Positions 3,004 to 40,348 of a stretch of 64,000 bases of DNA are shown in pieces. Source of the DNA: Bacteriovoracaceae bacterium. Its GTDB lineage: Bacteria > Bdellovibrionota > Bacteriovoracia > Bacteriovoracales > Bacteriovoracaceae. The stretch is from assembly GCA_947446575.1 (NCBI GenBank), contig CANFHC010000002.1, positions 1 through 64,000 on the forward strand. The letters are read 5' to 3'. The first letter of the stretch is position 1. The number at the start of each line of letters is the position of its first letter. The notes beneath the pieces are model-generated. The model was given only the letters and a program-made list of their open reading frames with translations. It was not told where the DNA came from and ran no database searches. The position numbers and the translations under genes are program-made.

Positions 3004-4698
3004 ATGCAAGAACAAAGTCAATTCGCCAAAGATCTTGAAATCAGTTTTAAGGATAATCAGTATTCCTATAAATTTGAAAATCATGTGATCTTTGCTTGTA
3101 CAAAAACTCTTCTCTCAGTCATGGCGAAGCTAAAAGATGAATTTGGTTTCAATATGCTCCTTGATGTTTGTGGAGTTGATAACAGCAAACGGCCAACTAC
3201 TGAATGGAGTCACTTAAAGCGATTCGAATCAGTCTATCATTTACTTAATATGGAAAAAAATGAACGCCTTCGCGTGCGTGTTCCGGTTGATGTAGATGCT
3301 GGAGAAATGGTTCCATCTGTTATGCCATTTTGGAAAGGTGCCGATTGGTTTGAGCGTGAAGCTTGGGATATGATCGGAATAACTTATTTAGGCAGAAAAA
3401 AAGAACGCCTACTGACTCACCACGAGTTTGTTGGTCATCCTCTAAGAAAAGATTATAGAGCTGATCACAATCAACCATTGTCTGAATCTCTTGATATTCA
3501 CTTCGATGCTGACCCATCGATTACTGCCGAAGATGCTATGAAGAGAGAGTGGATTAATATTGGACCTTCTCACCCGGCAACTCACGGAACACTTCGTATT
3601 ATGGCCGAGATTGAGGGTGAGGTAATTAAAAGATCGAAACTAGAAATCGGATATCTGCATAGATGTTTTGAAAAAATGTGTGAAACGCATTTATACAATC
3701 AAGTTATCCCTTATACTGACAGACTTAACTACTGTTCATCTCCAATGAACAATATCGGCTGGTGTAAGGCCATTGAAGACATGATGGGAATTGAAATTCC
3801 TGATCGTGCTAAAGCGCTTCGTATGGTGCTCGCAGAACTATCGCGCGTAATCGATCACCTCGTGTGTATTGGAGCGGGAGCTGTTGACTTAGGTGCCTTA
3901 ACGTCTTTTTGGTTTTGTTTTGAAGAGCGTGAAAGAGTCTACGAGTTATTTGAGAAACTTTGTGGAGCTCGTTTAACTGTATCTCTCACTCGTATCGGTG
4001 GTATGGCCCAAGAGCTTCCAGTGGGATGGGTTACAGATTGCCTTGAAGTCGTGAAAAAAATGGAGAAGGGCATTGCTGAAGTAGATCGCCTACTTACTAA
4101 AAATAAAATTTACGTCGATAGAACAAGAGTTTGTCCAATCACTGCTGAGCAAGCTGTTCAATGGGGATACACTGGACCTTGTCTTCGAGCGACGGGTGTA
4201 AATTACGATATCAGAAAAGCCAACCCATACTACTTCTATAAAGATGTAGATTTTGAAGTTCCAGTTGGTCTTAATGGCGATAATTACGACCGTTACCTCG
4301 TTCGTATGGAAGAGATGAGACAGTCACTTCGCATCGTTAACCAAGTATTACACAACCTTCCAAGTGGGCCTTATCAGTCTCTTGATAAGCGCGTTTGTAT
4401 TCCACCGAAAAAAGAAGTTTATACAAATATTGAAGGACTCATGAACCACTTCATGCTGATCATGAAAGGTGTTCGTCCACCAGTTGGAGAAATCTATTCT
4501 TCAACTGAAGCCGCTAACGGAGAACTTGGTTTCTACGTTATCTCGGATGGCGGACCAAATCCTTATAGAGTAAAAGTGCGTCCACCATGCTTTGCCATTT
4601 ACCAATCATTTAGTGAAGTCGTTCAAAATCATATGATTTCTGATGCCGTTGCTGAACTTGGAGCGATGAATATTATTGCGGGAGAATTAGACCGATGA
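3004..4698 (+). CDS. nuoCD: NADH-quinone oxidoreductase subunits C/D, fused
   Basis: A natural fusion of the 30-kDa (NuoC) and 49-kDa (NuoD) subunits of the complex I peripheral arm. Residues about 1-165 are NuoC, with the signature around FEREAWDMIGI and GHPLRKDYR. Residues about 178-564 are NuoD, beginning with WINIGPSHPATHGTLR, followed by EIGYLHRCFEK and YTDRLNY and ending ELGAMNIIAGELDR. NuoD shapes the quinone cavity next to NuoB. The same fusion occurs in enterobacteria, so it is unusual but known. It lies 28 bp after nuoB, and its stop overlaps the start of nuoE as ATGA, implying translational coupling. Confidence 0.97.
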   Translation: MQEQSQFAKDLEISFKDNQYSYKFENHVIFACTKTLLSVMAKLKDEFGFNMLLDVCGVDNSKRPTTEWSHLKRFESVYHLLNMEKNERLRVRVPVDVDAGEMVPSVMPFWKGADWFEREAWDMIGITYLGRKKERLLTHHEFVGHPLRKDYRADHNQPLSESLDIHFDADPSITAEDAMKREWINIGPSHPATHGTLRIMAEIEGEVIKRSKLEIGYLHRCFEKMCETHLYNQVIPYTDRLNYCSSPMNNIGWCKAIEDMMGIEIPDRAKALRMVLAELSRVIDHLVCIGAGAVDLGALTSFWFCFEERERVYELFEKLCGARLTVSLTRIGGMAQELPVGWVTDCLEVVKKMEKGIAEVDRLLTKNKIYVDRTRVCPITAEQAVQWGYTGPCLRATGVNYDIRKANPYYFYKDVDFEVPVGLNGDNYDRYLVRMEEMRQSLRIVNQVLHNLPSGPYQSLDKRVCIPPKKEVYTNIEGLMNHFMLIMKGVRPPVGEIYSSTEAANGELGFYVISDGGPNPYRVKVRPPCFAIYQSFSEVVQNHMISDAVAELGAMNIIAGELDR

Positions 4699-5174
4699 AT
4701 GAAACTTTTGAATTCAATGCCAGAAATATGGCGACATATAATGAATACCTCACTCGTTATGACGATGTTGAATCAGCACTTCTACCAGTTCTGCATTTAG
4801 CTCAAGAACAAAACGGATGGCTTCCTGAACATGTAATCAATTATATTTCAGGACTCATGAATATTCCTGCCATCAAAATCAAAGAAGTGATTTCTTTCTA
4901 CGATATGTTTTACGATGTGCCTGTAGCAAGAAATGTGGTGCATGTTTGTACGAACATCACTTGTTCAATGTTTGGTGGACGAGAAATTTATCAAGGTCTG
5001 TTAAAACATTTTGATACAGGTTATTTAACTCCGACTCGCGACGGTCGCATTTCATTGCAGAAAATGGAATGTTTGGGAGCCTGTGAGATTGCTCCTTGTA
5101 TGCGTGTTAATAATGATTTTGTTGGAAACCTTGATCTCACTAGTGCGATTCAAAAACTAGAGGAATTACCATAA
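4695..5174 (+). CDS. nuoE: NADH-quinone oxidoreductase subunit E
   Basis: NuoE (24 kDa) binds the [2Fe-2S] cluster N1a in the NADH-dehydrogenase module and pairs with NuoF. The thioredoxin-like domain shows the cluster ligands in HVCTNITCS (C-x4-C) and in ECLGACEIAPC (C-x3-C). Its 159 aa are typical. It starts inside the nuoCD stop (ATGA) and its own TAA overlaps the nuoF ATG (TAATG), so the three genes are tightly coupled. Confidence 0.97.
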   Translation: MNETFEFNARNMATYNEYLTRYDDVESALLPVLHLAQEQNGWLPEHVINYISGLMNIPAIKIKEVISFYDMFYDVPVARNVVHVCTNITCSMFGGREIYQGLLKHFDTGYLTPTRDGRISLQKMECLGACEIAPCMRVNNDFVGNLDLTSAIQKLEELP

Positions 5175-6451
5175 TGAAAGACGTAGCAAATTATAAAGAC
5201 TATGCACTTCTAAGTTACCACCACATTCCAGGTGTCCATAATTTGGAGATCTTCGAGCGCGCTGGTGGATATGAAATGATGAAAGCTTGTTTTCTTAAAG
5301 ATCCAGAAGCAATCAAAGAAGAAGTAAAAAATTCTGGTCTGCGCGGTCGCGGTGGAGCGGGATTTCCTACTGGAGTAAAGTGGGGATTCTTTTCTAAAGA
5401 TCGTAATGCAAAAAAATATCTTCTTTGTAATGCCGATGAATCAGAGCCGGGAACATTTAAAGATCGCTATTTGATGGAAAAAAATCCTCATATCTTAATT
5501 GAAGGGATGATTATTTCTGCTTGGGCTCTAGGAACACAAAAAGGATATATCTATATTCGCGGAGAGTTCTATCAACAAGCTGTGATTTTAGAGCGAGCGC
5601 TTAAAGAAGCTTACGCCAAGGGATACCTTGGAAAAAATATTATGGGCAAAGGTTTTGATTTTGATTTGTATGTTCACCGCGGGGCGGGTGCTTATATTTG
5701 TGGAGAAGAAACAGGAATGATTTCCTCTCTCGAAGGAAAAAAAGGTCAACCAAAACTAAAACCTCCATTTCCAGCAATCAAAGGATACAGAGGACTACCA
5801 ACGATGGTTAACAACGTTGAGTCTTTAGCTGCTGTTCCTTGGATTATGAGAATGGGAGCCGCTGCTTATAAACAATGGGGAACTGAAAAGTCTCCTGGAA
5901 CTAAATTGTTTTCAATTTCGGGTGACGTTAATAAGCCGGGAGTTATCGAAGTTCCACTTTCAACAACACTTAAAGAAATTATCGAAATCCACTGTGGTGG
6001 AATGAGAAATGGAAACGCACTTAAAGCGGTTATCCCTGGTGGATCATCTGCTCCAGTTTTTAATGCGGAAGATTCTTATTCAGTAAAAATGGACTATGAA
6101 GATGTAGCTGCAAAAGGCTCTATGCTTGGGTCTGGAGCGATCATCGTTCTTGATGAAACTCGCAATATGGGTGACGTCTTAAAGTGGACACTGGAATTTT
6201 ACCACCATGAATCTTGCGGACAATGTACTCCATGCCGCGAAGGAACTGGATGGCTTGAAAGTGTTTTCAAACGTCGTGATACTGGAAAATCTCAAAAATC
6301 AGATATCGCTCTTTTGGATAAAACAGCAGCTTCAATGCGCGGACAAACTATTTGTGCTCTAGCAGATGCGGCCGCAATGCCGACTCAAGGAATGATTAAA
6401 GTTTTCAGAGAAGAATTAGAACAATACGTAACTACTACAGGTAAGAAATAG
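5174..6451 (+). CDS. nuoF: NADH-quinone oxidoreductase subunit F (NADH/FMN-binding)
   Basis: NuoF (51 kDa) oxidises NADH, holds FMN and carries [4Fe-4S] cluster N3. Visible motifs in order are the glycine-rich nucleotide loop GRGGAGFPTGVKW (near residue 58), NADESEPGTFKDR, the FMN-region GAGAYICGEET, and the cluster motif ESCGQCTPCREGTGW (C-x2-C-x2-C) with a fourth Cys in QTICALAD. Its 425 aa are normal. It is fused by overlap to nuoE and separated from nuoG by 1 nt. Confidence 0.98.
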   Translation: MKDVANYKDYALLSYHHIPGVHNLEIFERAGGYEMMKACFLKDPEAIKEEVKNSGLRGRGGAGFPTGVKWGFFSKDRNAKKYLLCNADESEPGTFKDRYLMEKNPHILIEGMIISAWALGTQKGYIYIRGEFYQQAVILERALKEAYAKGYLGKNIMGKGFDFDLYVHRGAGAYICGEETGMISSLEGKKGQPKLKPPFPAIKGYRGLPTMVNNVESLAAVPWIMRMGAAAYKQWGTEKSPGTKLFSISGDVNKPGVIEVPLSTTLKEIIEIHCGGMRNGNALKAVIPGGSSAPVFNAEDSYSVKMDYEDVAAKGSMLGSGAIIVLDETRNMGDVLKWTLEFYHHESCGQCTPCREGTGWLESVFKRRDTGKSQKSDIALLDKTAASMRGQTICALADAAAMPTQGMIKVFREELEQYVTTTGKK

Positions 6452-29571: not shown

Positions 29572-30009
29572 TTATTTTACTGAATCTAATCCTTTTGACT
29601 TAACTTCTTTAAAGATTGAATCATAATCTGCAAATATTTTTTCAGAACCAAAGAAGCAAGTGGAAGTGTTTTCCCAACTCTCTTTGATCTTCACTTTAAG
29701 AAAACGTGGCTTGCCCCCAATTTTATAACATTGAACAAAAGCGGGGGATCCAATGCCATTACCAGGATGTTGTAATTCATTTCCTTTACCTTTATTTAGA
29801 CAGTTTCCGATGTCTTTGTGGCAGTCAGTGCTTATAAGATAGTAAGTCTGATCCTGCCAGCATCCATCGACTTTAAATTCAACACCTTTTTGCTGAGGTA
29901 CCTCGTTGAATTGAAGATCTAGTATGCCGCAATTCCACTTGAGTTCCTCTGCAGCGATTTTAAAACTGAAAATCATCGAAAAAATAAATATTGATTTATG
30001 CAGCTTCAC
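29572..30009 (-). CDS. Exported six-cysteine protein A, partner of protease A
   Basis: A 145-residue exported protein (signal peptide about 1-20) starting at GTG, whose ribosome site TAGGAG contains the stop codon of the upstream protease gene. Six Cys at 27, 50, 63, 70, 94 and 118 have exactly the same spacing as those of the paralogue at 35629-36051, so three disulfides are likely. Shared blocks include CG-x-L-x-L-x-FNE, DGC, LIS-x-DC, HPG, GSPAFVQCYK, GG-x-PRFLK and STCFFGS. I do not recognise the family. Being encoded directly after a papain-type protease in both copies suggests an inhibitor, chaperone, cofactor or substrate-binding partner. Confidence 0.85.
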   Translation of the reverse strand: MKLHKSIFIFSMIFSFKIAAEELKWNCGILDLQFNEVPQQKGVEFKVDGCWQDQTYYLISTDCHKDIGNCLNKGKGNELQHPGNGIGSPAFVQCYKIGGKPRFLKVKIKESWENTSTCFFGSEKIFADYDSIFKEVKSKGLDSVK

Positions 30010-30017
30010 TGAAACTC

Positions 30018-31313
30018 CTAAAATTTAAAAAAAGACGCAATTCCATTCCATAAAGAATTCAAAAAATTGCCAAGGCCTCTTCCAAATGAATTTTGAGAAT
30101 CGGGCTGCAACTGAGTATTGTCCGCATTAATTGAATTATCAGGCGTGGTTTTTTGAGTAAACTTTCTTTGGCGAGATTGTTGAGTCTGACCAATCTTTTC
30201 TTGAGAATCTTCATTTTGTGGAAGTTTCTTTCCTTTTCTGAGAGTTTGATTTGGCTTTGGGTTTTCAATCGTGTTGTCTGAAGTATTTTCAGACACTGGT
30301 TTAGCTTTTTTTCTTGAGCCGCTTCCACTTTCATTTTTTATGATAAGAACATCAGCAATTGAAGCCTGCAGCTGATCTTCATCCATCACGAAAGTTCCTT
30401 TGGAAGCATCACAGGTGTCTGCGAATTCTTCTTTATAGAATCCACATCCTCGTCCCCAGGAATTGCGGATAATGTACTGACATTTTCCGTTTCTACCAGG
30501 TTTTCGTCCGATAATTACCATTTCATGTGGTTCGTTGGTAAAATTGGTAAAAACGCCAGCAGAAATACCTATGGCAGGTAATGAATTATTTTCTAGCGCG
30601 TCGTTAAAAATAGAAGCAAAAGATTTTCCGCCAGTTCCTCCTCTCCTATATGTCTTCACATTAGGCTTAATCTTCACTCTGTTTCCATTGCAAAGTTTTT
30701 TCATGAGATCACGTAAACTAGCGAGACTGTCACCTTCATTTTTAATCAGAACTTCTTGAATCATTTTTTCGTTCACATTAGGAAGGGCAGGCTTAATAAC
30801 TCGTTCATACTCCTGATCAGCGCACTTCACGCAAAAGTCATTTGGTTTTCCGCGCGCTTTAAAATCTTGAGACAATCGTTGAAAAGAGGCCATTAAGGCC
30901 TTCAGCGTAACTTGGCCTAGGTTTGAAGAAGCTGTAATATTTGATGGGATAATCGATTCAGGACAATATCCGTTTGTCATGGCCACGTTGCTGGCAGCAT
31001 TTGGTGTAATCCCATCGAGAGAGCTAAGATCGATATTGCGTGCATTTTTATTAGCATATTGATTAATTGATATATCGAGGGCCGACACAGGCTCACCGAC
31101 AGCAAAAGAGAGAGCATCAGAGGATGCATAAGATCCACACCACCCAACAGAGTCCTGATCTCTTGGTTCCTTAAAATGTGTCACTAATCCTTCTTTGCCG
31201 ATTGATCTCAAATAGTCTGGATCTGTTAAATTGATCTCTGAACAATTTGTTGCAAAAGCTGAATTTTGAAGACTATAAATTAAGACTAAAGTGGGAATCA
31301 AAAAACGTTTCAA
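30018..31313 (-). CDS. Exported papain-family (C1-like) cysteine protease A
   Basis: A 431-residue exported protein with a signal peptide (1-21, cleavage after AFA). The catalytic set is in papain order and spacing: Gln53 and nucleophile Cys59 in RDQDSVGWCGSY, His263 in NEPHEMVIIG and Asn284 in IIRNSWGRG. A cysteine-rich insert (CVKC near 161-164) lies in the middle. There is no recognisable inhibitory propeptide: the active-site Gln is only about 30 residues after the signal peptide. After residue about 330 comes a polar Gln/Asn/Lys-rich, probably disordered linker of 75 residues and then an aromatic amphipathic tail (FLNSLWNGIASFFKF). The start is TTG with GGAG 8 nt upstream. Confidence 0.88.
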   Translation of the reverse strand: MKRFLIPTLVLIYSLQNSAFATNCSEINLTDPDYLRSIGKEGLVTHFKEPRDQDSVGWCGSYASSDALSFAVGEPVSALDISINQYANKNARNIDLSSLDGITPNAASNVAMTNGYCPESIIPSNITASSNLGQVTLKALMASFQRLSQDFKARGKPNDFCVKCADQEYERVIKPALPNVNEKMIQEVLIKNEGDSLASLRDLMKKLCNGNRVKIKPNVKTYRRGGTGGKSFASIFNDALENNSLPAIGISAGVFTNFTNEPHEMVIIGRKPGRNGKCQYIIRNSWGRGCGFYKEEFADTCDASKGTFVMDEDQLQASIADVLIIKNESGSGSRKKAKPVSENTSDNTIENPKPNQTLRKGKKLPQNEDSQEKIGQTQQSRQRKFTQKTTPDNSINADNTQLQPDSQNSFGRGLGNFLNSLWNGIASFFKF

Positions 31314-31600
31314 GAATAGTTCTCCTATCTATGAATTACCATTCTTAAAATTATAAAAGAATTAATAATTATTACTGTAAATCAAATGCACTTATTTGAA
31401 AAATAGATAAATATTCGATACTTATCTCAGTAGAACCATTCTTATCAAAGGGAAAAAACGTGCCCACTTTTCACTTACCTAAAGTGATACCACCAGGGTC
31501 TTCGCCGCTTTATGGGGAAGGAATTACCTAATTGAACGAAAATCTTCACTGAAACTTAAAGAATCATTTTAAAAAATCGAATAAGACATAGAGGGAAATT
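31314..31600. other. 287-bp divergent gap before the OMP-like gene
   Basis: This divergent promoter region has an AT-rich left half and a GC-richer core (31450-31530). The core contains a perfect 6-bp hairpin TCACTT-ACCTA-AAGTGA (31471-31487). No small gene with a ribosome site is visible. The core could be a leader RNA of the 487-aa gene or a regulator site. Confidence 0.4.
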
Positions 31601-33064
31601 ATGGCCTATTATTCTATTGAAACATTCATCCTTTTTATTTTATTTTCCACAGCTGCAATGACTGCTGAACTTGAAACACAACTTAAGCGTTTTAAACTTT
31701 ATAATGATATTTCAACTCAAGCTGGTAATAGTGAGGATGCTAAAAGAGCGGGACTTGCGCTAAAGCAGCTTAAGGATAACTCAAACGACTTTGTCAATCC
31801 AAACGCTGTGGCAAGACTTTATTATCAAACCGATGTCGATGCAAAGCCTTGCAGTCACTGCCCCAAATATTTAAATCTCACACTAGAAGTGAATAAAATT
31901 GTCGAGAAAGCAAAGGCCGATAAAGATCCTGCCGTGGAAAATGATGCTTTCATTCAACTCTCGAAACTTAAATTTATGTACTATGTTGTTCGAAGTGAAA
32001 ATGAAAATGGTGCAGTCAATTGTCAGAGAGTGAACAATTCCATTGAATTAAATCCATCCAATTTAGATGGTAATTTTAAAGTCATAAAAGATGTCATTGT
32101 TCGTATGCCAGAAATTTCTGATTTCCAATACTATCCTAAGGGGAAAGAAGATGCTTATTACTACTACCGCGGAGAAGGAGCAGAATCAAATATCGTCATA
32201 GAAGTTGTCATGCATAAGGATGGTAAGGCCAACCTTCGCTACTATGAATTTCAGGCTGATGACGGGAGTACAAATTATGCGAAGCAACTTCAGCATGAAA
32301 AAAAATTAGCAGCTGAAAGAAAAGGTAAAGAAAAGCCTGACGACAATTTTATTAAACCTATTTTTGAATTAAAAACTGGTGATACTATTATGCCCAAAGA
32401 TATCACTCTTCTAAGAGCAGGGGCAAGAGCAGAACTGACAGATGATGTGAACATTCTGCTCGGCAATGAGTCCAGCGTGAATGAGCAGACTGCGAACGTT
32501 GTTTTTGAAAGAGGCAATGGTCAAAAATGGATCATTATTCAGGGGAAAAATATCACTGACGGAGGTAAATCAGTTTCTGCTGCAATACCACTTGAAGTGG
32601 AACTCGATCAATCTTCGAAATTAAAAGTAAACGGAAAAATCGAGAACACTACCTCTATTGTCAATCTTGACGACATTAGAAAAGGCAACTTTACAAACAA
32701 GCAGTCGGCTTCTGTAAGTCTCAAAGATGAAGAACACGAATACTTAAATACTGAGACGAATTTTGACAGCAAAGGATTTGTTTCCACAACAGCTAGTAAC
32801 AAATTCAAGCTTTCGGATTCAACAAGCGTCGGTAGCTCTGTCACGTATGAAAGATCTGGGCAAACAAGCTTCAGCTTGAATGCAAGCACCAGTCTTCTAG
32901 GGGATGACAAATTGCAGACATCATTTGGTACAACTTCCACCTCTAAGCCTTTTGTGAGTACTCAATATGAAAAAAAATTTTCTGAAACGGGCACGCTTGT
33001 TTTAGGGACACGCTATGAGCAAAACAATGTCACTGCCTCAGCAGGTCTTAAGTTTGCTTTTTAA
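31601..33064 (+). CDS. Exported beta-rich protein, outer-membrane-like C-terminus
   Basis: A 487-residue protein with an N-terminal signal-like segment (about 1-21, cleavage near TAAMTA). The first half is helical and charged with a C-x2-C pair (KPCSHCPKYL). Residues about 270-487 are alternating polar/hydrophobic strands with many Ser/Thr/Asn and short turns, and the last strand ends in Phe (AGLKFAF), like the C-terminal signature of outer-membrane beta-barrels. It is the only plus-strand gene inside a minus-strand run of exported hydrolases and converges on the L,D-transpeptidase gene. No family is recognised. Confidence 0.72.
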   Translation: MAYYSIETFILFILFSTAAMTAELETQLKRFKLYNDISTQAGNSEDAKRAGLALKQLKDNSNDFVNPNAVARLYYQTDVDAKPCSHCPKYLNLTLEVNKIVEKAKADKDPAVENDAFIQLSKLKFMYYVVRSENENGAVNCQRVNNSIELNPSNLDGNFKVIKDVIVRMPEISDFQYYPKGKEDAYYYYRGEGAESNIVIEVVMHKDGKANLRYYEFQADDGSTNYAKQLQHEKKLAAERKGKEKPDDNFIKPIFELKTGDTIMPKDITLLRAGARAELTDDVNILLGNESSVNEQTANVVFERGNGQKWIIIQGKNITDGGKSVSAAIPLEVELDQSSKLKVNGKIENTTSIVNLDDIRKGNFTNKQSASVSLKDEEHEYLNTETNFDSKGFVSTTASNKFKLSDSTSVGSSVTYERSGQTSFSLNASTSLLGDDKLQTSFGTTSTSKPFVSTQYEKKFSETGTLVLGTRYEQNNVTASAGLKFAF

Positions 33065-33093
33065 AAAGATGTGATCACTTCAATTCTTTGACA

Positions 33094-35559
33094 TTAATTC
33101 TTGCGGTATAACTGCTTGTAGCGGTTTGAAATGATTTCGAAAAGGTTCAAGTCTTTAAACTGAATAGGAATTTCATTTGGAAAATTAATCATTCCATTTT
33201 TGTCTTTAGCTCGACGACTTGCCTCAGTTTGAGAATCGGATAAAGTATTGGCCGGAGCGCGCTTAAATGAATCGAAATAAGCTTTCTGAGTTAAGTATTC
33301 CTTCATCTGCTCAGGTGATAATTTTAAATCATCAAGCTGTTCAGGATTTTTCAGGGCAAGATTGATTTTTATGTAAAAATTGTCATTGTAAATTCCACTG
33401 CGACTATCTATACCGACCTGATTAGCTGTTTTTGTATTCAGATCAAAATCACTTCCGCCAAAACCCTTTGCGCGATTTCGCGCAATAGTTGCAGCAATAG
33501 ATTCAGGCGGAGTTCCTGTGTATTGAGTCGCCAGATATCCTGTCCCTCCGGCCAAGCTTGAAATGCCAGAGCTGGCAGAAGTGCCAGAACTGTTCGTGTC
33601 GTCTTTTCTTAAAAGAATAGATCCATCCTGCGCGTTCATTTTCTGTTGGTTTAAATTGAGACCTATGCCTCCCAATTCTATTCCTGTTTGTGAATCGGCC
33701 ATGGAAGGAATGTTCATTTTTTGCTGTAACAAATTTTCTGATTTAGAAACATAATCTTTCAATTCAGCACCAAATTTTTTAAGTACTTGCTTAACTTCTT
33801 CCCGGGCAGCCGTGTTCTGAACAGGATTAGTATTTTTTGAAACAGCTGAAAGACAGTAATCTCTTGAAGCTTTAAAAGTAAATTTATTAGTAAGAGAGTA
33901 TACTGATGCAATTTCATTGAACTCGTTTAAAGAAACTGTGCCGTGTTTTGCAAATTTTTCATTACATTCATCGTAGAGAGAATCAGTGGTTGGCATTGTT
34001 GAAGCAACTGCAGCGAGCTGTTCTATTTTTGCGCGTGATATATCTGCGCGCTCTAGTGCGACATTGGATTTATCTGTAATTAAACCTTCGGCCTGTTTTA
34101 ATGATTCTGCCTGGGCATTTATACCGGGCACTTGTCCTATTCTGTTTTCCGCATTGGTTTTATAATCTTTTACCTGGCGCGAGTGCGCTTCGGCTTCAGC
34201 TTTCAACAATGCATCGTGAGCTTGAATCGTTTTTAGGCAGGCTTGATAATCCTGCGACTCTGGATTGTTATAGATGCAAGTAATGCTTCCGTCGCTTGAA
34301 GATTTTTTATCAGGTTGATTCACGTCGGGTTTATTAAAGTCAGTTCTTCCAGAAATATGTGCTACGGCCACACAATCATTGATAGCAGCAACTCTTTGCT
34401 CAGCGAGCTCCATCGCTGGTCCAGGATCAATCGCATTCTGTCCAACGTATTGCTGGAATTCTTTCCAGGATCCTTTAAAGCGCTCGGAGGGATTTCCACC
34501 ATTATTGATAAAGGTAACTGTATCTTTCCACGAACTATCAGAAAGCATCTGACATTCCTGATATTTGTTTGAACCTTTAAGTGTTTCAACACCATTTATT
34601 TTTGATGGAATAACTGCAGATTTTACATTTTTATTTGAATCGGAATTTGAACCAAGTAAAGCCACTCCACCAAGGGCCAGTTCTCCACCTTCCAGGGCCA
34701 TTGAACCAAGTGAAGGTTTCGCTGAAGCAAGGCTTGTTTCAGAAAAATCATTATTCATTTTTTTAGGAGTGACTTCCGGAGCTTCACTAACAGTAGTCGT
34801 CTTTTTCGCTTGAACAGCTTGGGTGATATCCTCTGAATCTTCAGCGGCTGCACCTTCAGATCGCACTGATGAACCCTGAAAGGAATAAATGAGAGTATTG
34901 TTTTTTAACATTTCATAGGCGACAGCAAACTGGGCCGGTGGAAGAACTATACAACCTTCTGAAAGACCAGACCAACCACCTCCATTTGTATGAAGAACAA
35001 CTCCTCTGTTGAACAGCATAGAGTTGAGATCCGGCTCAAGCCCTTTGAGTTTTAAATTTTCAAAAACCTTTTGAGATACATTCTGTTCAGAAGCAATCAT
35101 AAATCCTAGTGAAGATTGCATACTTTCGTTGATGTTGGAGAAAGCAGCGGCCGGAACACCAGAAATAAAATTACAGGAAGGCAAACCACGATGAGAACTG
35201 ACTTTTCTGCATGCTCCACCTTCGGGCCCCGCTGAAGAATTTAAGCCGTGGGCTGCACGAGAAAAAAGCACGGCTCTTTTTTTGGAAAAATCGATCGTCA
35301 CGAAACGTTCCTGATCACTAGGAATAGAGTAATTCAAAAAATTGATTAATGGACTGCCATTGAGTTTGCTTCTGTATTTATAAAATCCAACATAACCTTT
35401 ATAGAAAGCATTAAAAGGCACAATGTTTTTTGTATCAATTGACTGGTAGATTTCTTCTGCTTGCTTCAAAAAACGCTGTTTTTCTTCTTCAGGATTTTCC
35501 TGAGCGTTAGTCTTTAAGGCAAAAAGGAGAATATATGTGCTAAGCAAATATGGTTTCAT
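33094..35559 (-). CDS. Exported L,D-transpeptidase-like protein with long C-terminal region
   Basis: An 821-residue exported protein (signal peptide 1-19, cleavage after TNA). Residues about 45-235 match the second YkuD-type (murein L,D-transpeptidase) family: VTIDFSKKRAVLFSRAAHG, SSLGFMI, LKLKGLEPDLN, then His190 in VVLHTNGGG and the catalytic Cys203 in LSEGCIVLP. Such enzymes cut or form bonds at meso-diaminopimelate in peptidoglycan, and predators use them to alter their own or the prey wall. The remaining 580 residues hold two short Cys pairs (near 338-400 and 430-440), a coiled-coil segment, a Gly/Ser-rich linker (about 645-675) and an aromatic C-terminus (NLFEIISNRYKQLY). The extension is unassigned. 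It is 69 bp downstream of six-cysteine gene B. Confidence 0.85.
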   Translation of the reverse strand: MKPYLLSTYILLFALKTNAQENPEEEKQRFLKQAEEIYQSIDTKNIVPFNAFYKGYVGFYKYRSKLNGSPLINFLNYSIPSDQERFVTIDFSKKRAVLFSRAAHGLNSSAGPEGGACRKVSSHRGLPSCNFISGVPAAAFSNINESMQSSLGFMIASEQNVSQKVFENLKLKGLEPDLNSMLFNRGVVLHTNGGGWSGLSEGCIVLPPAQFAVAYEMLKNNTLIYSFQGSSVRSEGAAAEDSEDITQAVQAKKTTTVSEAPEVTPKKMNNDFSETSLASAKPSLGSMALEGGELALGGVALLGSNSDSNKNVKSAVIPSKINGVETLKGSNKYQECQMLSDSSWKDTVTFINNGGNPSERFKGSWKEFQQYVGQNAIDPGPAMELAEQRVAAINDCVAVAHISGRTDFNKPDVNQPDKKSSSDGSITCIYNNPESQDYQACLKTIQAHDALLKAEAEAHSRQVKDYKTNAENRIGQVPGINAQAESLKQAEGLITDKSNVALERADISRAKIEQLAAVASTMPTTDSLYDECNEKFAKHGTVSLNEFNEIASVYSLTNKFTFKASRDYCLSAVSKNTNPVQNTAAREEVKQVLKKFGAELKDYVSKSENLLQQKMNIPSMADSQTGIELGGIGLNLNQQKMNAQDGSILLRKDDTNSSGTSASSGISSLAGGTGYLATQYTGTPPESIAATIARNRAKGFGGSDFDLNTKTANQVGIDSRSGIYNDNFYIKINLALKNPEQLDDLKLSPEQMKEYLTQKAYFDSFKRAPANTLSDSQTEASRRAKDKNGMINFPNEIPIQFKDLNLFEIISNRYKQLYRKN

Positions 35560-35628
35560 AAACAGTCTTTCGGTTTAATGTTATAATTTTTAAATAATTA
35601 TATTTTAAAGAAAGTTAACTTATTGAAT

Positions 35629-36051
35629 TTACTGAGTTTGTACTTCTTTTTCTCGGGATAATTCAATCGTATCATAATCCATAAAATGCTTGCGAGAGCC
35701 AAAAAAACAAGTCGAAGAATCTTCCCATTTTTCATCAACATATATCTTGAGAAATCTAGGTCTTCCCCCGTTTTTATAACACTGAACAAAAGCAGGTGAG
35801 CCCATCTGAGCTCCTGGGTGTTTTACTTTATTTTTAGCTCCCCATTTTAAACATGACTTGGGATCTTTTTTGCAATCGTTACTGATTAAAAAAAAACTTC
35901 CCGTTTTATAACAACCATCCAATTTAAATTCATCGCCTGACTTCGTGGGATTTTCATTAAACATGAGTTTTAATTTTCCACATTTCCACTCACCAGCAGA
36001 AGCAGAAAATTGTAAGAGAGAACATAGAATTACAGCAATTATTATTTTCAT
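35629..36051 (-). CDS. Exported six-cysteine protein B, partner of protease B
   Basis: A 140-residue paralogue of the protein at 29572-30009, with a signal peptide (1-19) and the six Cys at 24, 47, 60, 67, 91 and 115, i.e. each shifted by exactly three residues. Blocks DGC, LIS-x-DC, HPGAQMGSPAFVQCYK, GGRPRFLK and STCFFGS are conserved while the rest has diverged, indicating an old duplication under constraint. Its ribosome site (TAAGGA) contains the TAA stop of protease B, the same arrangement as in copy A. The family is not recognised. Confidence 0.85.
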   Translation of the reverse strand: MKIIIAVILCSLLQFSASAGEWKCGKLKLMFNENPTKSGDEFKLDGCYKTGSFFLISNDCKKDPKSCLKWGAKNKVKHPGAQMGSPAFVQCYKNGGRPRFLKIYVDEKWEDSSTCFFGSRKHFMDYDTIELSREKEVQTQ

Positions 36052-36058
36052 AATTTCC

Positions 36059-37372
36059 TTAATAACTAAATGATTTTCTCATCTCTTCCCAGAAATTTGA
36101 TAAAAAACTTCCAATTCCATTTGCGATATTTTGGAACATTGAACCTAAATCAGAGAAAAAATTACTGAAGGTATTATTCGCATTTTGATTTAGTATTGGG
36201 TTTGGTTCTGGATTTGGGATAGGGGACAATTGTTTGCCTTCATTTGTTTCATCTGGTTTTATTTTGTTTTCTTTATTAATAATGGGCTGACCGTAATCCG
36301 TTTTTCCTTTTCCGTTATCACTATTTAAAACAATTTTACTTCCGCCATTGTTTGTCTTTTTAATTGGTCCAGTACTTTTTACAACAGTTACTTCATTTAA
36401 TGTTTTTGTTAATTGATCTTCAGACAACCAAAATGTTCCAGCATTTTCATTACATGTTTTTGCAACTTCCGGAATATAAAATGAACAGCTTCTTCCCCAA
36501 GAATTTCTAACCATGTATTCACATTTTCCATTTGCCCCCATTCTTTTTCCAGCGACAACCATGGCATGTAGTGAATGACCACCAGGAACAGCTTCAATTT
36601 TTGCAAAAGTAGAGGTATTAATAACAATTGAAGGCATACTAGAACTCTCTAGAGCTTCTTGAATTTTATTAACATACTGCTGACTTGAAACTGAATAGAC
36701 TGATTCCAATTTAATGTTGGAAGTGGCTACACGATTTTCACCACAAACACGTGTAAGCAACTCTTTTAAGCTCGCTAATCCATTTCCATTATTTTTTCTA
36801 ATGACTTCATTAACCAAACCGATAGTAGATCCTGGAATCGATGACTTTATATACTTTTCAAAAAACTTTGTCGTACAACTTTCGCAATTTTCAATGTTTT
36901 GCCGGCCACCATTTGTTTTATTAATGTAATCTTGAAAATACTCAAGAAAACTAAAAAGTGTTACTTGACCTAAATTCGAACTGAATGTTTGATTTGAAGG
37001 AATTGATCTTTCTGGACAATACCCATTTTTTTGAACATTTTTAATAATATCAGTGACAACCATTCCTTCTGAACGCAATTGATCAGAATTTAAATTATTA
37101 GACCCTGAAGCATTATTGGCGTGAAAAGATATTGTCATATCTAGAGCAGAGGCAGGTTCACCTGTTGCAAATGAAATGGCGTCCGAAGCCGAATAAGCAG
37201 CACACCAACCTACGCTGTCTTGATCTCGTGGCTTTTTGAAATGTTCTATTAAAGCATCTTTTCCTACAGAACGTAGATAGTCAGGATTTGTTAAATCTAC
37301 AGTGCCACATCCAGCATACAAAGAGCAGTTGATTAGAAAAGTAGAGATAATAAAGAATATTGCTTTCATCAT
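36059..37372 (-). CDS. Exported papain-family (C1-like) cysteine protease B
   Basis: A 437-residue paralogue of protease A: signal peptide about 1-20, then the nearly identical active-site segment KPRDQDSVGWCAAYSASDA with Gln and nucleophile Cys, His in GHSLHAMVVAG and Asn in MVRNSWGRSC. Cys pairs (CESC) match those of copy A. A polar linker rich in Asn, Pro and Lys (about 340-395) ends in an aromatic amphipathic tail (SNFFSDLGSMFQ, NGIGSFLSNFW). The frame opens at TTG 37375, but two adjacent ATGs (37372, 37369) are better starts; the ribosome site is weak. Confidence 0.88.
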   Translation of the reverse strand: MMKAIFFIISTFLINCSLYAGCGTVDLTNPDYLRSVGKDALIEHFKKPRDQDSVGWCAAYSASDAISFATGEPASALDMTISFHANNASGSNNLNSDQLRSEGMVVTDIIKNVQKNGYCPERSIPSNQTFSSNLGQVTLFSFLEYFQDYINKTNGGRQNIENCESCTTKFFEKYIKSSIPGSTIGLVNEVIRKNNGNGLASLKELLTRVCGENRVATSNIKLESVYSVSSQQYVNKIQEALESSSMPSIVINTSTFAKIEAVPGGHSLHAMVVAGKRMGANGKCEYMVRNSWGRSCSFYIPEVAKTCNENAGTFWLSEDQLTKTLNEVTVVKSTGPIKKTNNGGSKIVLNSDNGKGKTDYGQPIINKENKIKPDETNEGKQLSPIPNPEPNPILNQNANNTFSNFFSDLGSMFQNIANGIGSFLSNFWEEMRKSFSY

Positions 37373-37495
37373 CAAATAATTCTTTCATAACTAGCAATAT
37401 AATCAAGTGGAAAATATGTAGCTGCAACAACACATGGGCCAGAAAAGCTGGCTCAAGTGTTGCTAAATTCGTTGTTTCATAAGCATTTACGACAT

Positions 37496-38203
37496 TTAAT
37501 TTTCATTCCAACAACCTAAGAATGGTCTTTTTAAATGGAAGCCAGATAGTGGGTTTGCGATTCCGCTAGCTCCTTTTACACCAATATGGCCATAGATGTG
37601 TCCTCCCGACGTAGTAACCAAACCACCTTTATTAAATACACAAATTGATCCCGTTGGAGCTTCATCGTAATTTGCATACCTATGCCAAGCAGCTTTTCTT
37701 AATTGAGGAGCGGCCATGTAAGCTGCAACACCGTAGAGTTCGATACGATCTTTTACGAGCGCTTTTACAACATGGTAACAATTAGTAACACCATTTCTTT
37801 TAGTACGACTAACTGTTGGTCCTGCATAATCTAAATCATTTAAGAGATTATACGGATCAATTTCACCAGTGGATTCATTTTGATTTAAAATAGTATATTC
37901 AGTTGAGTAAAGTTCATTCAAGTTTATGCCGGTATCGACAATTTCCTGAACTTCAGAATTTGGCTTCCCTACATTTACCAGCGAGAGATTGCCGGAATTA
38001 TCTACAATTAATTCAGAACCAATTGGAATTAATTTTCCATGGATCGAAAGGGATTTGTTTAAAGCAATCACAGTTCCGGCCTCAATTTTATTTTCAATTT
38101 TTTGGTCGTAGAATGAACTGTCGTCTTTAGGTAAAGCTGCAAAACTTAGAGAACATAGTTGAAAATAGGTAAGTACTAAGAAAGTCATTTTAAATTTGTT
38201 CAT
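37496..38203 (-). CDS. Exported Cys/His hydrolase, NlpC/P60- or CHAP-like
   Basis: A 235-residue exported protein (signal peptide 1-22, cleavage after SFA). The C-terminal half resembles NlpC/P60-CHAP cell-wall amidases: the candidate nucleophile is Cys142 in GVTNCYHVVKALV, followed by a GSICVFNKGG strand and the His motif in GGHIYGHIGV (His202/His206). The N-terminal half has a small beta domain (AGTVIALNKSLSIHGKLIPIG). If active it would cut peptide bonds in peptidoglycan. It is upstream of protease B on the same strand with a 120-bp gap, so it may have its own promoter. Confidence 0.72.
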   Translation of the reverse strand: MNKFKMTFLVLTYFQLCSLSFAALPKDDSSFYDQKIENKIEAGTVIALNKSLSIHGKLIPIGSELIVDNSGNLSLVNVGKPNSEVQEIVDTGINLNELYSTEYTILNQNESTGEIDPYNLLNDLDYAGPTVSRTKRNGVTNCYHVVKALVKDRIELYGVAAYMAAPQLRKAAWHRYANYDEAPTGSICVFNKGGLVTTSGGHIYGHIGVKGASGIANPLSGFHLKRPFLGCWNEN

Positions 38204-38521: not shown

Positions 38522-40348
38522 ATGAAAAAGGCTCAAACATTATTGAATTTGCTATTCCTGATTTTATCAGGAACATTGCTATTTTCATCATGTGTTCAAG
38601 GTACTGGGACCAGAGCTAAAACAACTTCAAAATCCAGTGGTCTAACAGGGACTGGGGCAGGATCTGGCAGTGGAGCAAGCGCAGTTGATACCACAGACAC
38701 CACCACGACCACTGATACAACAACATCTCAAAGAGTAGAGCTTTCTCACTTAGTTGATCCATTCGATGGAACATACAAAAAGAAATTAACTATTCCAAAA
38801 AATTTCAAAGGGAATTTGTTCCTAGCGGGTTTAAATGTTTCTGCACTGACAGATAAAATTATTTTCGTGCGATTTAATTTCGGAACAGATAAACAATCAG
38901 TCACACTAAACGCCACTGTGGCCAGAGCTCCGGGGATCGTTCCTAAAACAGATATTCAAGTCCTCGTTGTCGATATGAACGGAAAACCCTTTAATAAAAT
39001 GCGCCTGCCTTATGATCTTTATGATTATAACGATTACTCTGATCCAACAAAAGCTATGGTTACAGATCCAAAAAATGGTCAAGTCTATTGCCGGGGATTA
39101 AAACTTGAAGACGATCCAACATTTATTCCTCTTACACAAGATTCAAAATGTTCTGCCGTCGGAGACAAGTGTCTTTACTCTTACGCTAAGGTTGTTGATT
39201 CAACTTTATATAGTGATCAAACTCTTAATGGAACTCCTTATCGAGTTTCTTCAATACCAACTCGCACACATGTGTGGACGGAAAGTAGTGGAGTGCGAAA
39301 TCCTCTGGTAGCTGCTCTTGCTGGAACTGCTTGTTTGCCAGATGATGAAGGTGTTTCTACTCTCAATTCACTATTTGATACGAACATTCCTATTTTTTCA
39401 TTCGATTATCCGGTTTTTTCAGGCTACTACTACCGCGGTCCTTATCGCTCAATCGATGATGGAAGTTGGCAAGTCACAGACTTCGCTCGATACAATGCAA
39501 CTTATGGTATTTTTCAGGCACCAACTGCAATTGCCGGAGTGTTAGGATATCATTCATTCTTATTTCCTCGAGCTGGAAAACTCTCTCTTGCTCAAGGGAT
39601 AAATTATCTTGGATCATCGCTGAACCCAATTGGAGCGAGAATAAAAACTGTTTCAAATTCTTCAGGATCAACTGATTACGTTGACGGGTGTAACTTCCGC
39701 GTAATGAATTATGATCCAACAAGTAATGAAGGAATTGGTTCCTGTAATGTCGATTCATCAATCGAAGTTTATTACATTTTAAATGGTAAAGAAGTTAATA
39801 TCACGACTGATAAATCCATTAAGCTGCAATTGATTCGTCCTTCAACAACAAACTATTTGGGTAAAGATGTTTTAACAACATCATTCAAGCGATGTGAAAA
39901 CTCAGCCACATGTGGATCAGACGAATGTTGTTTTAACTCACGATGCTGGTCAAAAGATTTAGTTACTCAATGTGTGGATTCAACTCCCATTGTTGGTAAC
40001 CAAGAAATCGGAGCTAGTTGCCGCTCAGATTTCGAATGTTCGAGTTTATGTTGTAATCAATCAACTGGAGCGTGCGCGCCTCATAATCCAAACGGAACTA
40101 CTCCGATATTCTGCGCGAAAACTTCAGATCAGCAATGTGTTTCAAAAGCATTCTGCGCTCAAGAGGCCGTGACCACTTGTAAAATTGTTAAATCGGGCTT
40201 TAAGGCCGATGGAACTGTTGCCTGTACTTTGCGTTGCCCATCAGTCATGACGTACGGAAACTGTGTAGGAGGTTCGTGTGTGCCACCGACTCAACCAGCC
40301 GTTCCAAACTTTGATCCAAATGATTGTTCGGCCGCAGTTGACCCATAG
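38522..40348 (+). CDS. Large cysteine-rich lipoprotein
   Basis: A 608-residue protein with lipobox FSSC (Cys at about 24), so probably anchored in the outer membrane. Then come a Gly/Ser linker and a Thr/Asp low-complexity tract (about 50-70), a beta-rich middle (about 75-450), and a cysteine-rich C-terminus. The C-terminus has at least two repeats of the form C-x6-C-x4-CC (CENSATCGSDECC; CRSDFECSSLCC) plus about ten more Cys, which suggests a compact disulfide-bonded surface domain. Similar proteins seem typical of predatory Bdellovibrionota, but I cannot name a function. It faces away from the protease locus. Confidence 0.78.
   Translation: MKKAQTLLNLLFLILSGTLLFSSCVQGTGTRAKTTSKSSGLTGTGAGSGSGASAVDTTDTTTTTDTTTSQRVELSHLVDPFDGTYKKKLTIPKNFKGNLFLAGLNVSALTDKIIFVRFNFGTDKQSVTLNATVARAPGIVPKTDIQVLVVDMNGKPFNKMRLPYDLYDYNDYSDPTKAMVTDPKNGQVYCRGLKLEDDPTFIPLTQDSKCSAVGDKCLYSYAKVVDSTLYSDQTLNGTPYRVSSIPTRTHVWTESSGVRNPLVAALAGTACLPDDEGVSTLNSLFDTNIPIFSFDYPVFSGYYYRGPYRSIDDGSWQVTDFARYNATYGIFQAPTAIAGVLGYHSFLFPRAGKLSLAQGINYLGSSLNPIGARIKTVSNSSGSTDYVDGCNFRVMNYDPTSNEGIGSCNVDSSIEVYYILNGKEVNITTDKSIKLQLIRPSTTNYLGKDVLTTSFKRCENSATCGSDECCFNSRCWSKDLVTQCVDSTPIVGNQEIGASCRSDFECSSLCCNQSTGACAPHNPNGTTPIFCAKTSDQQCVSKAFCAQEAVTTCKIVKSGFKADGTVACTLRCPSVMTYGNCVGGSCVPPTQPAVPNFDPNDCSAAVDP

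Follow-up and report, generated by a model that had tools for sequence, protein, structure and literature searches.

Papain-like protease genes paired with genes for a small, cysteine-rich, DUF333-like protein in the Bdellovibrionota

A 64,000-nucleotide stretch of the genome of a Bacteriovoracaceae bacterium (assembly GCA_947446575.1, contig CANFHC010000002.1, positions 1–64,000; hereafter the window, meaning the whole stretch analysed) contains two cassettes, A and B, each consisting of a gene for an exported, predicted papain-like cysteine protease and a gene for a small exported protein with six cysteines. In Bdellovibrio-group bacteria, this small protein is almost always encoded directly beside an exported papain-like protease, and it may well be a periplasmic inhibitor or guard of that protease. 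The window has a G+C content of 0.37 and belongs to a genome of 3.39 Mb assembled in 71 contigs.

Both cassettes lie on the minus strand, with the small gene in second position. In cassette A, the gene for protease A (30018–31313; 431 residues, TTG start) is followed after 8 bases by that for small A (29572–30009; 145 residues, GTG start), and in cassette B the gene for protease B (36059–37375; 438 residues) is followed after 7 bases by that for small B (35629–36051; 140 residues), an arrangement already described in the sequence-only reading of this DNA. Each small gene has a good ribosome-binding site. The papain catalytic set could be aligned in both enzymes, i.e. Gln53, Cys59, His263 and Asn284 in protease A and Gln52, Cys58, His270 and Asn291 in protease B; as computed from the starts of the open reading frames (ORFs), the codons of the catalytic cysteines occupy positions 31137–31139 and 37202–37204 of the minus strand, respectively. 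The cysteines of small A (27/50/63/70/94/118) and small B (24/47/60/67/91/115) are identically spaced, and small B has one additional cysteine (Cys10) within its signal peptide. Export of all four products was called from the hydrophobic N-termini read in the sequence. The two proteases share 37% identity and the two small proteins 50%, so that for the latter the earlier description of the remaining sequence as diverged is somewhat too strong. Another contig (C12) of the same genome carries a third pair, much diverged from these, where the small gene comes first, in the order opposite to that of A and B.

A profile scan of 369 genomes of the phylum detected the small family in 95 genomes and the protease family in 218. 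Adjacency was counted on the set gathered via the small protein, which is free of protease bias; 48 loci from a protease-alignment scan are biased toward pairing and were not used for this count. Of the 107 small-protein matches with E values of up to ~7e-6, 98 adjoin a papain-like gene on the same strand, 4 stand apart and 5 are broken or situated at the end of a contig. A listed protease match lies alongside 65 of them, and the remaining 42 were settled by reading the DNA (33 with a papain-like neighbour, plus the 5 edge or broken cases and the 4 isolated genes), three of the five edge pieces being judged from their position at a contig end. Thus, 98 of the 102 assessable small genes are adjacent to a papain-like gene, and two of the four unpaired ones have such a gene within ~2.5 kb. 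The sequence-only reading would have been contradicted by small proteins commonly encoded far from any such protease, and the phylum shows the reverse. Other searches agree: a single-sequence search detected small-protein homologues in 31 of 144 related genomes, an iterated profile yielded 41 small-protein ORFs (40 beside a same-strand papain-like ORF and one at a contig end), and the protease neighbour was confirmed by profile for 90 of the 96 distinct small genes fetched from all sources. Given only a few such proteases in a genome of about 3,000 genes, adjacency by chance would be expected for well under 1% of the genes. The association is one-sided, as the small protein almost never occurs without the protease, whereas proteases do occur without the small protein. 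Joint action of the two products is therefore strongly supported, and far more by this pairing than by the local duplication from which it was originally deduced. The duplication was rejected as the main functional evidence: A and B are old copies, and two relatives with a single copy have one that is closer to A than to B.

Among 86 non-identical pairs, the protease gene precedes the small gene in 68 and follows it in 18, and most of the paired genes directly adjoin each other or share a few bases, larger overlaps being an artefact of choosing the first possible start codon. At four loci (L037, L051, L047 and L042) the protease and small genes are neighbours in the same reading frame. The genomic surroundings vary among relatives, and the pair therefore travels as a unit. 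Some variants of the arrangement were also observed. At L171, L190, L073, L158 and L042, one small gene is flanked by, or comes after, two papain-like protease genes. Another, more canonical papain-like protease (QGNCGSC and NSWG motifs; ~493 residues) is encoded beside or near several pairs (L036, at 4140–5621, L053, L055, L060 and L066) and next to or near the third pair of the present genome.

The two families have also diverged together. Over the 86 pairs, the distance matrices of the small proteins and the proteases are correlated with r = 0.72, compared with at most 0.10 in 1000 permutations, although the former value is inflated by the common descent of the genomes. A comparison within genomes carrying two or three pairs removes this effect, and in 29 of 32 such comparisons the small protein fitted the distance profile of its own protease better than a swapped partner did. 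One of the three failures is window protease B, which fits small A, as is expected of close paralogues.

The cysteine pattern noticed in the window recurs in the phylum far beyond chance. All six cysteines are aligned in 66 of the 86 pairs, C1 and C2 are both absent in 19, C3 and C4 are both absent in one, and no small protein lacks just a single cysteine. Since the cysteines are lost only pairwise, this covariation implies disulphides C1–C2, C3–C4 and C5–C6. AlphaFold2, run with 35 aligned sequences, gave a confident model of the small protein (mean predicted local distance difference test score 88.9, predicted template-modelling score 0.80), in which three strands, helices, three further strands and a final helix follow one another. 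The model matched no fold in the PDB (best E value 0.26, template-modelling (TM) score under 0.35), and nothing below an E value of 0.4 was obtained among viral models. By sequence, the family gave only a chance-level match to the PDB and matched no inhibitor family, and small A and small B matched no family in Pfam or NCBIfam.

The earlier statement that the small protein matches nothing holds for the curated Pfam and NCBIfam models, none of which matched, and fails at the level of profile comparison, which ties the small protein to DUF333 (PF03891). The Pfam model itself gave no match above its cut-off to small A or small B, and matched weakly 3 of 34 members of the small family (best E value 0.012). 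In the comparison of profiles by hhalign, the six-cysteine family and the DUF333-type partners (the A6 set, which includes two DUF333 proteins with a looser link) were aligned with a probability of 97.6 and an E value of 2.7e-12, over the second half of the small protein including the C5–C6 pair. One gene beside a protease was recovered both by the DUF333 model, with the cut-off passed, and by the small-protein profile (listed as L061 and L170), and most of the other DUF333 genes found by a Pfam search of 57 relatives, made irrespective of proteases, are likewise beside proteases. Phylum-wide, 30 of 37 DUF333 loci, a set that partly overlaps the small-protein loci, are beside a papain-like gene (29 by profile and L193 by reading of the neighbour), whereas seven lack such a neighbour, tandem-domain proteins among them. 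These data indicate that the small protein is a diverged, N-terminally extended relative of DUF333, sharing with it the C5–C6 pair and the domain core of its second half and differing from it by an N-terminal extension with the additional C1–C2 pair. The four-cysteine partners and the DUF333 proteins form a continuum, to which the window form adds the extension and one disulphide. The DUF333 domain is also present in Escherichia coli. Exported tandem DUF333 proteins without a papain-like neighbour were seen at L166/L174, L176, L186 and L196, and several tandem genes adjoin similar genes for proteins of ~266–294 residues, possibly regulators. No functional report on DUF333 was found in the open-licence literature.

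The proteases of the window are predicted to be papain-like (family C1-type) enzymes, although they passed no curated cut-off for a C1 family in Pfam or NCBIfam. In an AlphaFold model of a window protease, residues 1–315 adopt the papain fold with good confidence, followed by a disordered stretch and then a helix, which are recorded as the disordered linker and C-terminal helix of protease B. Foldseek related the model with a probability of 1.00 to papain-fold enzymes, i.e. cathepsins, xylellain, Lpg2622 and Pd_dinase, with target TM scores of 0.63–0.65 for cathepsins S and K and high ranks also for the other three. The protease profile reaches papain-family structures weakly by sequence, and a weak PF00112 match was found in 17 of 31 relatives (best E value 1.3e-6). 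The Gln–Cys–His–Asn set and the Asn-Ser-Trp-Gly motif are conserved in the paired proteases, of which 82 out of 86 have an intact triad; the other four are ORFs cut at contig ends or misaligned. Compared with PF00112 enzymes, which they resemble in modelled fold, catalytic set and Asn-Ser-Trp-Gly motif, the window proteases differ in a helical segment inserted between the parts that bear Cys and His, in the linker and C-terminal helix, and in the N-terminus. Papain-type enzymes are normally kept inactive by an N-terminal propeptide. In proteases A and B, only ~30 residues separate the presumed signal peptide from the catalytic Gln, and the papain domain begins at once in the model, so that there is no room for a propeptide. 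This distance is ~20–50 residues in most paired proteases, ~55 of the 86 having short and ~30 long N-termini. As a side observation, a protease of this family without a partner occurs on a contig titled Nitrosovibrio sp. (L117), which is possibly misassigned.

An inhibitor, a chaperone and a targeting factor had all been considered for the small protein, and sequence alone does not decide among them. We favour a periplasmic inhibitor or guard. Each cassette would supply an exported protease together with a dedicated, exported and disulphide-bonded partner of the extended DUF333 type, the two being made from one transcript. The partner would fold in the periplasm with its C1–C2, C3–C4 and C5–C6 disulphides, bind the protease before the latter leaves the cell, prevent it from digesting the envelope of the producer, and possibly be shed upon secretion; for proteases A and B, it would serve instead of the usual propeptide. 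Exported with no propeptide to restrain it, a papain-type enzyme would already be active in the periplasm of its producer, and a partner that is itself exported, carries stabilising disulphides and hardly ever occurs without the protease fits a guard that holds the enzyme until its exit. Our confidence in this explanation is about one half, because nearly the same genomic trace would be expected from a folding helper or from a targeting subunit. Several observations weigh against it. In about 30 of the 86 pairs, the N-terminal region of the protease is longer and might include a propeptide, so the lack of one does not generally explain why a partner exists. For some members of the wider protease family no partner was detected, and the modelled fold of the small protein resembles no solved structure, not even that of a known inhibitor. 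The phylum also contains tandem DUF333 proteins with no protease gene beside them, which means that the link between the DUF333 fold and proteases is not universal.

The combination of an exported protease of papain fold and a small inhibitor encoded next to it is already known. Staphopains with staphostatins, SpeB with Spi and the Bacteroides C10 proteases with the Bfi and Bti inhibitors have their linked inhibitor genes upstream or downstream of the protease gene, and some of the Bacteroides inhibitors are exported (PMC3462683), as is the small protein studied here. Each small gene of the window likewise adjoins its protease gene, and the two may be co-expressed. The small protein has no match to the staphostatin, Spi or Bfi/Bti families or to solved inhibitor folds, and it differs in particular from the staphostatins, which act in the cytoplasm and are lipocalin-like according to a title cited in PMC3462683, in being exported and rich in disulphides. 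Among predators, Bdellovibrio bacteriovorus protects its own envelope from its endopeptidases by complex formation with Bd3460 (PMC4686830). This protein is comparable as a guard against the predator's own degradative enzymes, but it has an ankyrin fold and peptidoglycan endopeptidases as targets, whereas the enzyme here is a papain-like protease.

Less probable, in our view, is a folding helper acting in trans, in which the partner would resemble a detached propeptide or foldase by the logic of the lipase-specific foldases of Gram-negative bacteria. The strict pairing, the tightly packed genes and the lack of propeptide room in the window proteases and most others would suit this role; yet partners also accompany proteases with long N-terminal regions, related proteases manage without any partner, and a disulphide-locked domain of 120 residues is not typical of foldases. 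We consider it rather unlikely, and slightly more so than a folding helper, that the partner is a stable subunit or targeting factor, co-secreted with the protease and directing it to prey or substrate or tuning its specificity. Both proteins are exported and co-diverging, and the free gene order (68 versus 18) suits any one-to-one complex, but the partner contains no recognisable binding domain besides DUF333, and no direct fusion of protease and partner was seen in the pairs read, although fusions are common for targeting domains. A cysteine-rich partner beside a thiol enzyme, with six cysteines lost only pairwise, could also be imagined as an activator or redox partner that protects or switches the catalytic cysteine, or whose cleavage frees the enzyme. 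The small protein has no CxxC redox motif, and pairwise loss fits structural rather than redox-active disulphides, making this role improbable. The conservation of an operon does not require contact between its products, but we see the least chance for mere linkage of two genes with separate functions, given that the pair is kept in different families of the phylum, with either gene order, in unrelated surroundings and with paralogue-specific co-divergence. Toxin–immunity between strains was rejected by inference: the pair lies on the chromosome, is widely distributed and did not look polymorphic in the sequences read.

Other genes near the cassettes are given as context and are not shown to belong to them. 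The interval between the cassettes contains, on the same strand, a gene (33094–35559, minus strand), not mentioned in the sequence-only reading, for an exported protein of 821 residues with an N-terminal YkuD_2 L,D-transpeptidase-like domain (PF13645, E value 3.4e-19) and a long remainder without assignment; in two relatives (G003 and G011), the gene of this type does not adjoin the protease/small pair. Upstream of protease B and on the same strand is a gene (37496–38203, minus strand) for an exported protein of 235 residues with weak, CHAP-like similarity (E value 0.0081, below the family cut-off). Beyond it, a gene at 38522–40348, divergent from the cassette B cluster, encodes a probable lipoprotein of 608 residues whose C-terminal part is rich in cysteines.

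No description of these proteases or partners for Bdellovibrio was found in the open-licence literature, and an earlier report elsewhere is possible; what we regard as new is the pairing throughout the phylum, the map of the disulphides and the connection to DUF333. If the inhibitor reading is true, the partners would constitute an unrelated inhibitor family with an unseen fold. It is conceivable, but clearly a more tentative proposal, that extended DUF333 proteins form an undescribed class of exported cysteine-protease inhibitors that disarm propeptide-less proteases across the Bdellovibrionota, and that the DUF333 proteins of other bacteria are perhaps protease inhibitors too. The pairing gives DUF333 a first functional context and suggests how papain-type enzymes could dispense with a propeptide. 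To our knowledge, few guards have been described in predatory bacteria despite the many digestive enzymes that these organisms must survive. Protease partners kept phylum-wide offer a ready set of candidate guards, with pairs present in cultivated Bdellovibrio and in Halobacteriovorax-like genomes.

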